NCBI RefSeq assembly: GCF_018860545.1
Contig: NZ_JAHKPN010000011.1
Span: 496,001 to 560,000, forward strand
DNA from: Winogradskyella psychrotolerans
GTDB taxonomy: Bacteria; Bacteroidota; Bacteroidia; Flavobacteriales; Flavobacteriaceae
DNA length: 64,000 nt
Reading direction: 5' to 3'
Positions 20,487-50,092 of the stretch are shown in pieces. The position numbers and the translations under genes are program-made. The notes beneath the pieces are model-generated. The model saw only the letters and a program-made list of their open reading frames with translations, was not told the origin of the DNA and did not search any database. How positions within the stretch are numbered: position 1 is the stretch's first letter; every line of letters starts with the position of its first letter.

Positions 20487-20497
20487 ATAACCTATTA

Positions 20498-20605
20498 CGT
20501 CAGTTCGAGTATTTCGACTTTTGGGTCGAAATGTATCGAGAACCTTAAGTATTTCATAGCTTCTCGATAAAAAATTCCAAAAAAAGAATTTCACTCGAAG
20601 TGACG
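20498..20605. repeat. palindromic repeat element, intergenic copy (copy A)
   Basis: A 108-nt element with outer arms CGTCAGTTCGAGT (20498-20510) and ACTCGAAGTGACG (20593-20605; 12 of 13 positions pair). Inside are two perfect hairpins: 8 bp at 20511-20518/20525-20532 and 9 bp at 20534-20542/20561-20569. It lies between guaD and xdhA. Its right half (20561-20604) matches 49397-49440 inside a glycosyltransferase gene at 40 of 44 positions without gaps. Confidence 0.85.
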
Positions 20606-20648
20606 CTATCGTTTCATTTTTAATTTATTTATAATTGAAATCATTAAC

Positions 20649-29162: not shown

Positions 29163-29221
29163 TGTCATAATGAGCGCAATTGAAAATGAATTCTAGATTT
29201 TTAATTGCGCTCAAACTGACA
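29163..29221. terminator. inverted repeat between convergent genes, probable bidirectional terminator
   Basis: A perfect 10-bp stem (GAGCGCAATT at 29172-29181, AATTGCGCTC at 29203-29212) with flanking TGTCA/TGACA ends (29163-29167, 29217-29221) lies between the convergent pucG and ureidoglycolate hydrolase genes. The position suits a two-way terminator. The sequence also resembles the palindromic GTCA...TGAGCGCAATTG family of intergenic repeats. Confidence 0.6.
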
Positions 29222-32470: not shown

Positions 32471-32701
32471 TTAGGTCTGAGAGATTCAATTTATAAAAAT
32501 ACTGTTATTCAAAATAGATACAAACTAAAATGTAGATTTCTTGGAAGGGCTTTTTTATGCTTCAATGACAATTAATTTTGGTAAACGTTAACCTCATCAT
32601 AGCGTAACTAATGAGATGGTAAGATGTAGAAAGGTTTAATTATAACCTTGTAGGTATAAATCGACTTTTCACATCTACAAGGTTTTGGAGATCTTACAAG
32701 A
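32471..32701. repeat. intergenic region with a CCTTGTAGG-type hairpin
   Basis: This 231-bp gap between two minus-strand genes contains a perfect 10-bp inverted repeat, AACCTTGTAG at 32644-32653 and CTACAAGGTT at 32675-32684. The same CCTTGTAGG unit recurs three times at 49987-50090. The gene-proximal part (32471-32560) should hold the allC promoter, but no clean promoter motif was recognised. Confidence 0.55.
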
Positions 32702-49182: not shown

Positions 49183-49965
49183 ATGATAAGTATTATTATT
49201 CCTGTTTTAAACGAAGCTGAACGTATTGGTGATGTATTGACGCATCTTTTTGAGAATTCTGATGCTGCTCATATTTCTGAAATTATTGTAGTGGATGGTG
49301 GAAGTACGGATGGGACTCAGGATATGGTTAAAAACTTTGTTACTTCAAGCGATTCTAAACAACGTGAAGAATTGTATCGAGAAGCTAATGGGAATGTTCT
49401 CGATACAAAATTTCAAAAAAATAATTTCACTCGAACTGACATACAACTCATTCATTCAGAAAAAGGCAGAGCAAAACAAATGAACCTTGGCGCAAAGCTT
49501 GCAACTGGAAATATTTTATATTTTCTTCATGCTGATTCTTTTCCTCCAAAACATTTTGATCAACTCATTATAGATGAAATAAATAAAGGGAATAAAGCAG
49601 GTTGCTTTAGAATGCAGTTTGACAGCAATCATTGGTGGCTGCGTTTAGCGAGTTGGTTCACTCAATTTTCTTGGCGTGCTTGCAGAGGTGGAGACCAAAG
49701 TCAGTTTATAACCAAAACACTGTTTAACGACATTGGTGGTTATGACGAAAATTATATCATTTATGAAGACAACATATTAATTAACGAGCTCTATGCGCGA
49801 AAAGAATATGTGGTTATCAATAAAAAAATTATTACCTCAGCACGACTCTATCGTAAACAAGGAGTTTGGACATTGCAGTATCACTTCTGGATGATATATG
49901 TAAAGAAATGGTTTGGTGCTTCGGCTGATGATTTGCTGGCTTATTATAAGAAGTATGTGTGTTAA
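49183..49965 (+). CDS. TIGR04283-type arsenosugar biosynthesis glycosyltransferase with in-frame repeat insertion
   Basis: GT2-family glycosyltransferase of 260 residues, about 30 longer than I expect for the family. The N-terminal MISIIIPVLNEAERIGDVL and VVDGGSTDGTQDMV (residues 37-50) and the later LIHSEKGRAKQMNLGAKLATG (from residue 89) are standard GT2 motifs, followed by FRACRGGDQ-like and EDN segments. Between them, residues 53-86 are encoded by a 102-nt palindromic repeat that does not resemble the family. The reading frame is uninterrupted. It ends the arsenosugar cluster. Whether the insert is tolerated as a surface loop is unknown. Confidence 0.88.
   Translation: MISIIIPVLNEAERIGDVLTHLFENSDAAHISEIIVVDGGSTDGTQDMVKNFVTSSDSKQREELYREANGNVLDTKFQKNNFTRTDIQLIHSEKGRAKQMNLGAKLATGNILYFLHADSFPPKHFDQLIIDEINKGNKAGCFRMQFDSNHWWLRLASWFTQFSWRACRGGDQSQFITKTLFNDIGGYDENYIIYEDNILINELYARKEYVVINKKIITSARLYRKQGVWTLQYHFWMIYVKKWFGASADDLLAYYKKYVC
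49339..49440. repeat. palindromic repeat element inside a coding sequence (copy B)
   Basis: A 102-nt element, exactly 34 codons, occupying codons 53-86 of the glycosyltransferase gene. It has a perfect 12-bp hairpin (49372-49383 with 49397-49408), a 3' arm ACTCGAACTGAC (49429-49440) and a decayed 5' arm beginning GTTACTTCAAGC (49339-49350). Positions 49397-49440 match the intergenic copy at 20561-20604 in 40 of 44 bases with no gap. Confidence 0.85.
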
Positions 49966-50092
49966 ATTGTTCTGCAAAGTTTTAAAAACCTTGTAGGATA
50001 AAGGCACTTATTAAGAGGTTTATTTATGTCTCAGCAAACTCAATGAAACCTACAAGGAGTCCTCGTACCTCGGAAACACCTTGCAGGTTTGA
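49966..50092. repeat. CCTTGTAGG-type repeat cluster between convergent genes
   Basis: Three copies of the unit occur: CCTTGTAGG (49989-49997), its complement CCTACAAGG (50049-50057) and a variant CCTTGCAGG (50079-50087). The first two form a 9-bp inverted repeat and the second and third an imperfect one. The convergent position suggests terminator function; the same unit occurs at 32644-32684. Confidence 0.6.

Follow-up and report, generated by a model that had tools for sequence, protein, structure and literature searches.

A CGTC-tagged, REP-like palindrome pair in frame within a glycosyltransferase of Winogradskyella psychrotolerans, at a loop that holds unlike repeats in relatives

A glycosyltransferase gene of Winogradskyella psychrotolerans contains an in-frame palindromic element of 102 bp that belongs to a family of dispersed repeats, here called R1. 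We put at roughly 78% the probability that this element is an inverted pair of REP-like units carrying a CGTC tag, in frame and likely translated, and that its site has likely been recolonised by, or had its content replaced with, unlike repeats. Behind this estimate stand a repeat family, its covarying structure and its spread, an open frame, and unlike repeats at the same site, all of which were observed directly.

The element and its host enzyme

The host gene occupies positions 49183–49965 on the forward strand of the window (i.e., the whole 64-kb stretch of DNA that was analysed) and encodes 260 amino acids, the coordinates including the stop codon. Its assignment to the TIGR04283 family of glycosyltransferases, with a GT-A fold, comes from the open reading frame, a profile search, an AlphaFold model and Foldseek: the product scored 228.7 bits against the TIGR04283 profile, exceeding the curated cut-off of 182, and the top Foldseek match was the fucosyltransferase WrtF (E = 4.3e-12). 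In the profile alignment, residues 2–255 of the protein fall on 221 profile positions, leaving about 33 extra residues. The AlphaFold model, built from 64 sequences, has a mean pLDDT of 79.1 and a pTM of 0.77, and residues 56–83, between a helix at 45–50 and a strand at 86–91, form its sole run in which pLDDT stays under 50 for at least three residues. Because such low confidence is confined to this run, residues 53–86 likely form a flexible linker that lies apart from the confidently modelled core, and the predicted product of the in-gene element is likely a disordered surface loop of 34 residues.

As originally predicted, codons 53–86 (49339–49440, forward strand), which cover the low-confidence loop, are a palindromic element lying in frame inside this gene, with no stop codon across its whole length. 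The perfect 12-bp hairpin is present, its left arm (TTGTATCGAGAA) at 49372–49383 and its right arm (TTCTCGATACAA) at 49397–49408, both as read on the forward strand, and the right half of the element, 49397–49440, matches the intergenic stretch 20561–20604 at 91% over 44 nt. The palindrome itself called for refinement: what had been described as one element resolves into two inverted units of about 50 nt, a left unit on the forward strand (49336–49386; 36.8 bits against the R1 covariance model), which is the more decayed of the two, and a right unit on the reverse strand (49394–49443; 66.6 bits). By the same model the intergenic match is part of a full inverted pair (20496–20607), with its first unit at 20496–20545 on the forward strand (61.1 bits) and its second, which contains the 44-nt match, at 20558–20607 on the reverse strand (66.2 bits). 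None of 200 shuffled sequences folded as well as the 102 nt within the gene (z = -3.36).

Models from Rfam 15 gave no match to 49250–49550 up to an E-value of 1, and across the window the sole gathering match is a SAM riboswitch (RF00162, 4627–4750, forward strand, 81.7 bits). Other palindromes occur in the window: a repeat of the form CCTTGTAGG...CCTACAAGG stands at 49989–50057 and 50079–50087, about 25 bp past the glycosyltransferase stop codon, and is seen again at 32646–32682; and a palindrome of about 60 bp at 29163–29221 (TGTCA..ATGAGCGCAATT..AATTGCGCTCAAACTGACA) resembles another pair with TGTC tags.

A dispersed repeat family with covarying structure

The search for further copies that had been suggested as a check returned 57 BLAST matches in the genome at E ≤ 10, with E below 0.01 for about 20, and 60 units by covariance model at E ≤ 0.01. 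Since the genome holds so many further matches, the element cannot be put down to chance; the genome-wide family and its covariation together rule out both a chance palindrome and a native loop of the enzyme. From the 60 units, 14 inverted pairs with the tags facing outward were picked, the glycosyltransferase pair included. R1 extends well beyond this strain: under stricter filters, with no more than 88 candidates scored in each genome, matches were found in 63 of 68 genomes of the genus, and at E ≤ 0.001, with no more than 20 candidates scored in each genome, in 160 of 299 genomes of the family, representing 136 of 236 genera. Some R1 units elsewhere stand about 160–195 bp apart, like tandem arrays of a longer unit (G003:C1:413735-414816, G003:C1:768511-769443 and G012:C11:2492-4524).

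To describe the unit, 23 of 34 own-genome sequences were aligned, leaving aside the two glycosyltransferase units and nine others that were of odd length, truncated or near-duplicates; one of the 23 sits in a doubtful open reading frame (L152, below). The consensus reads CGTCA[G/C]TTCGAGTG, a variable inner hairpin, and TGTATCGAGAA[C/G], i.e., an outer stem of 6 bp that opens with a G-C or C-G pair (G-C in 13 of the 23, C-G in nine, U-A in one), enclosing a variable inner helix. The unit starts with CGTC in 18 cases, TGTC in three and another sequence in two, and the ends beyond the stem vary.

The pairing of the unit is supported by covariation. Among the 23 aligned units, all outside the glycosyltransferase gene, pairing is kept in 95.0% of cells, as against 76.7% in shuffles, and cells with a double change number 55 as against 20.0, a value reached in none of 500 shuffles. 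The covariation score was 0.473 against 0.155 in shuffles (again 0 of 500), the best slid control attaining 0.171. Less telling is the number of base pairs with a double change (7 vs. 5.8 in shuffles, 71 of 500). For the right units inside the gene and its homologues (n = 18) the test is a weak one, with 94.8% of cells paired vs. 91.8% in shuffles and a covariation score of 0.133, which one slid control exceeded (0.158).

Rare genic copies and an open frame

Copies of R1 inside genes are rare in this genome. Judged by overlap with open reading frames of at least 90 codons, only the two units of the glycosyltransferase pair lie clearly inside a gene; two more fall in a 97-aa ORF (L152) that we retain as doubtful, and the remaining 56 of the 60 lie in no ORF of at least 90 aa. 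Most other R1 pairs would break a reading frame: among the 13 other own-genome pairs, one of them the L152 pair, length is divisible by three in 3, and stops are absent from 8 of 78 frame readings, whereas the glycosyltransferase pair, at 102 nt, is open in the frame of the gene. In the genus, the enzyme was found in 66 of 68 genomes, and none of the 73 matches listed contains a stop; inserts in relatives differ in length yet stay in frame. From this pattern we infer that the element is probably translated as part of the protein.

A search for other in-frame R1 candidates, run only in the frame used in the glycosyltransferase, gave a match at E ≤ 1 in 42 of 68 genomes, most of the matches listed being short or stopped frames. 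L215, an apparent N-terminal extension of a DinB protein, was set aside as probably lying upstream of the true start, L218 and L220 for having no 90-aa ORF across the unit, and L216 and L217 for a TGA inside the frame. The last two (in G064 and G022, respectively) are R1 pairs in frames of about 300 codons with one TGA, which may represent the end of a gene or an interrupted gene. A homologue search with residues 49–92 returned nine homologues among ten candidates; because all were the same enzyme, this search is uninformative about other proteins.

The same loop in relatives

We compared 92 genes: the window gene, 80 further loci, and 11 from genomes of the genus. The best named homologues come from Winogradskyella. 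The same loop holds unlike palindromic repeats in relatives, or none. R1 units were found in 18 homologues; L043, at first unclassified, proved to carry a weak unit (24.5 bits), making it the 19th carrier. In nine others, the loop holds a different palindrome, judged from sequence and folding. Near-empty length, i.e., 21–25 residues between the anchors, was seen in 23, and 42 loops, later 41, were left unclassified, ten of them only 26–28 residues long and thus perhaps empty. The expectation that residues 53–86 would be a gap in all other homologues therefore failed: 23 of 92 are near empty length, and the rest are longer, with several kinds of insert. Three homologues (L038, L077 and L081) carry similar residues and no R1 match. 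Similar residues without the palindrome had been named beforehand as evidence against an inserted element, and such homologues do exist; their sequences allow the reading, short of proof, that they are decayed R1 copies.

The other palindromes are of several types. In L072 and L079 a ACCTGTCAGG hairpin is linked to one half of a short pair of CGTC type, which L102 has in full; L118, L123 and L127 have a AAACCTCACAGGTTT hairpin, L118 and L123 being nearly identical. Repeat status was checked genome-wide for two of these inserts. For that of L072 the matches number 26 in the genome of origin, and 14, 3 and 28 in three further genomes; for that of L118 they number 20 in the genome of origin, with 21 and 15 in two further genomes. 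These counts include the gene itself, and both strands of one palindrome may count twice in them. To the eye, inserts begin at about the same codon position. In the pair L067/L058 the right half of R1 is kept and another hairpin replaces the left. No target-site duplication was identified at the insert, and by eye the empty site seems 2–3 codons short, with no clean junction.

Repeated changes and low synonymous divergence

On a tree of the 92 homologues built from the flanks only, the distribution of R1 requires at least 10 changes, five of them forced by starred branches; other palindromes need 7 and the empty state 11. Adding L043 raises the number for R1 to 11, or 8 when set against the empty rows only. 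Homologues of empty length are placed among the carriers, and an AU test rejects a single clade of all 19 carriers (p-AU = 2.6e-6), with the provisos that the tree is a quick one, in which 33 of 89 inner branches are open forks, and that the group was named after the tree had been seen. Horizontal gene transfer or repeated loss could mimic some of the repeated gains.

Divergence was measured in eight carriers with the full 102-nt pair, all Winogradskyella and drawn from 13 with full or near-full pairs. Synonymous divergence (pS) is 0.169 in the element (bootstrap 0.085–0.270) vs. 0.567 in the 222 flank codons, and of 189 equally sized windows in the flanks the lowest reaches 0.463. At non-synonymous sites the two differ little (0.124 in the element, 0.112 in the flanks), giving a pN/pS near 0.7 in the element vs. 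0.2 in the flanks. We read the low pS as the mark of an element that is young or homogenised, or else constrained as DNA or RNA; selection on the hairpin, at either level, or gene conversion could be its source. An old, vertically inherited and relaxed insert is unlikely because the pS of the element is low, unless the element is constrained as DNA or RNA or has been replaced from a shared pool.

The most direct pointer to replacement of the element may be a comparison of three sequences. Against its nearest relative, L032, the window gene is 97% identical in the flanks and 82% in the element, the difference being mainly a patch in the left unit and the spacer; between L032 and L061, by comparison, the elements are 93% identical and the flanks 83%.

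Other proteins with repeats at fixed places

Sequence comparison suggests the same pattern, i.e., unlike CGTC- or TGTC-tagged repeats in frame at one spot, in a second GT2 enzyme and in two groups of HsdM proteins. In the second GT2 enzyme, which was matched at E ≤ 1e-60 in 67 of 68 genomes of the genus, the corresponding loop carries R1 half units directly after a VDDDSEDDS motif: among the 30 loci examined, four score 43–68 bits and four 22–32 bits, and another locus (L239) has a different repeat at the same loop. HsdM, found at E ≤ 1e-60 in 16 of 68 genus genomes, has in G032 an R1 unit (52.2 bits) in a linker that in G025, G048 and G061 holds TGTCACCCTGAGCGCAGTCGAAGGG, CGTCATTGCGAGCGACGAAGGAGCGAAGCAATCT and CGTCATTGCGAGCGAAGTGAAGCAATCT, respectively, the three proteins sharing 86–92% identity with the G032 protein. 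The linker of two more distant homologues has 11 residues and no repeat, and in the solved structure 3khk five residues separate the two matched parts.

In the second HsdM group (L268–L272) repeats occupy one spot upstream of a WLxxHF motif, and by eye L272 is without one, and L268 and L270 look like a repeat nested within a repeat. Across L257–L260 and L268–L272, close HsdM relatives have what look like different CGTC- or TGTC-tagged repeats in one shared linker, and two of these seem to be nested. An intact tag reads GTC, i.e., valine, in left R1 units as well as in HsdM; the opposite orientation gives GAC. The scan for short repeats was run on loci chosen around these genes, and its 10 places are therefore no sample of any genome.

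Discussion

The account that we propose for these observations is as follows. A non-autonomous repeat would enter a gene; copies that break the protein would be lost, and the survivors would be those in tolerant loops and stop-free frames. A loop once occupied seems to receive further repeats, which replace the old one, settle next to it or enter it, and copies left untouched would decay. On the simplest reading, the element would be DNA that is tolerated and slightly selfish and that gives proteins variable loops, and we claim no benefit to the enzyme.

A single old insertion, inherited vertically, might instead have had its contents exchanged by homologous recombination or gene conversion with other alleles or with intergenic copies, and no repeated insertion would then be needed. 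The roughly common starting codon of the inserts (by eye), half-exchanges such as that in L067/L058, and the restriction of the difference between the window gene and L032 mainly to one patch all speak for such exchange. Nevertheless, we consider it unlikely: empty-length homologues stand among the carriers, unlike repeats with little sequence in common (e.g., the CCTCACAGG hairpin and the short CGTC pair) are poorly explained by homology, and the same pattern recurs in other genes. Alternatively, the hairpin might be kept for a role as nucleic acid, such as mRNA stability, translation pausing or the binding of gyrase or another protein, with the peptide as a by-product. The low synonymous divergence, the elevated pN/pS and the pairing retained in the 18 in-gene right units fit such a role, which we nonetheless regard as distinctly improbable: in many homologues the gene stays open either without any insert or with one that forms no strong hairpin, and one site holds unlike repeats, which seem to decay in several lineages. 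That a strong hairpin lies inside a conserved enzyme might also suggest that the element is skipped during expression, through ribosome bypass or removal from the RNA, yielding a protein without the loop; we find this barely credible, in that both the frame and a stop-free reading are kept, although skipping requires neither.

As to the agent of movement, REP-associated Y1 tyrosine transposases (RAYTs), which have been proposed to move GTAG REPs, might also move R1. Genomes with a match to Y1_Tnp hold more R1 units (median 38, n = 31) than do those without (median 12, n = 37; Mann-Whitney p = 0.014), a raw association, uncorrected for kinship and genome size and based on no more than 88 R1 candidates per genome. 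However, the genome with the window gene, with its 60 units, has no Y1_Tnp match, nor do 14 of the 32 genus genomes with at least 30 units, and many of the matches are weak and lie in frames of about 500 aa; we therefore consider RAYTs quite unlikely movers of R1. Our preferred reading remains that of an inserted REP-like pair at a site visited more than once.

The nearest relatives of R1 among published repeats are the CGTC-tagged REPs. As described by Di Nocera, De Gregorio and Rocco (2013; PMC3733652), in the portions of that account drawn on here, these carry a CGTC or TGTC tag at one end, form inverted pairs and are biased toward intergenic DNA; they have been reported in Bacteroidetes, with intragenic copies in several species and no dedicated transposase known. 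R1 resembles them in all of tag, inverted pairs, intergenic bias, occurrence in Bacteroidetes and intragenic copies. Inverted dimers predominate among the published repeats, and our 14 tag-outward pairs among 60 units may correspond to these, the orientation terms being matched without certainty. The published unit, according to the same portions, has a stem of 8–9 bp with complementary A-T in the first and second positions, a loop of 4–5 nt and a CCA tail, whereas R1 is about 50 nt long, its outer stem has 6 bp, a variable inner hairpin takes the place of the loop, and there is no CCA tail. Because it lacks the short stem, short loop and CCA tail, we do not assign R1 to the published CGTC families, whose way of working it shares. 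The closest precedent for shared sites in that source is recB, in which two Xanthomonas species have different REPs at about the same place; recurrent replacement at fixed loops, as proposed here, is absent from its description of CGTC REPs as far as we draw on it.

The likeness to the protein-coding palindromes of Rickettsia that had been proposed for the element finds support, in that a conserved enzyme here contains, in frame, a palindromic repeat that is dispersed in the genome. The Rickettsia palindromic elements (RPEs; Ogata et al. 2000 and 2002, as summarised in parts of PMC10969869 and PMC3733652) are dispersed palindromes, both in genes and between them, that occur in unrelated genes and encode a conserved peptide. 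R1 shares with them an in-frame position in unrelated genes (the TIGR04283 glycosyltransferase, the second GT2 enzyme and HsdM), but it differs in its phylum, in having only two of 60 own-genome units clearly in a gene, and in the unlike kinds of repeat at one site. The parallel is one of description, with the qualification that R. conorii RPE-6 and RPE-4 have been equated with CGTC-1 and CGTC-4 repeats (PMC3733652), so that those RPEs are themselves CGTC repeats. The palindromic amphipathic repeat coding elements (PARCELs), as outlined in the part of PMC2996958 used here, are likewise coding sequences with dyad symmetry that are spread across taxa; they form repeated domains, often in membrane or surface proteins, whereas here there are single insertions in enzyme loops and most repeat copies lie outside genes. 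We found no report of coding palindromes in Flavobacteriaceae in our searches of the open-licence literature. Within these comparisons, what would be new is that unlike repeats turn over in frame, again and again, at fixed loops of several Flavobacteriaceae proteins, as their sequences suggest.

Rickettsia has been the best-known source of protein-coding palindromes; these findings add marine Flavobacteriaceae, and they turn single insertions into replicated natural experiments, in which one loop is empty, occupied, apparently decayed or differently filled in close relatives. This makes several questions testable, among them the means by which REPs that have no known transposase move, whether one REP targets another, and what translated copies cost or bring. 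More tentatively, and at somewhat less than even odds, certain loops of Flavobacteriaceae proteins may act as nests, in which a CGTC palindrome, once tolerated, is joined or replaced by others, and in which the codon read from the tag would set a stop-free frame. If so, the movement of REPs would be a standing source of new protein loops in at least four groups of proteins, i.e., the TIGR04283 glycosyltransferase, the second GT2 enzyme and the two HsdM groups.
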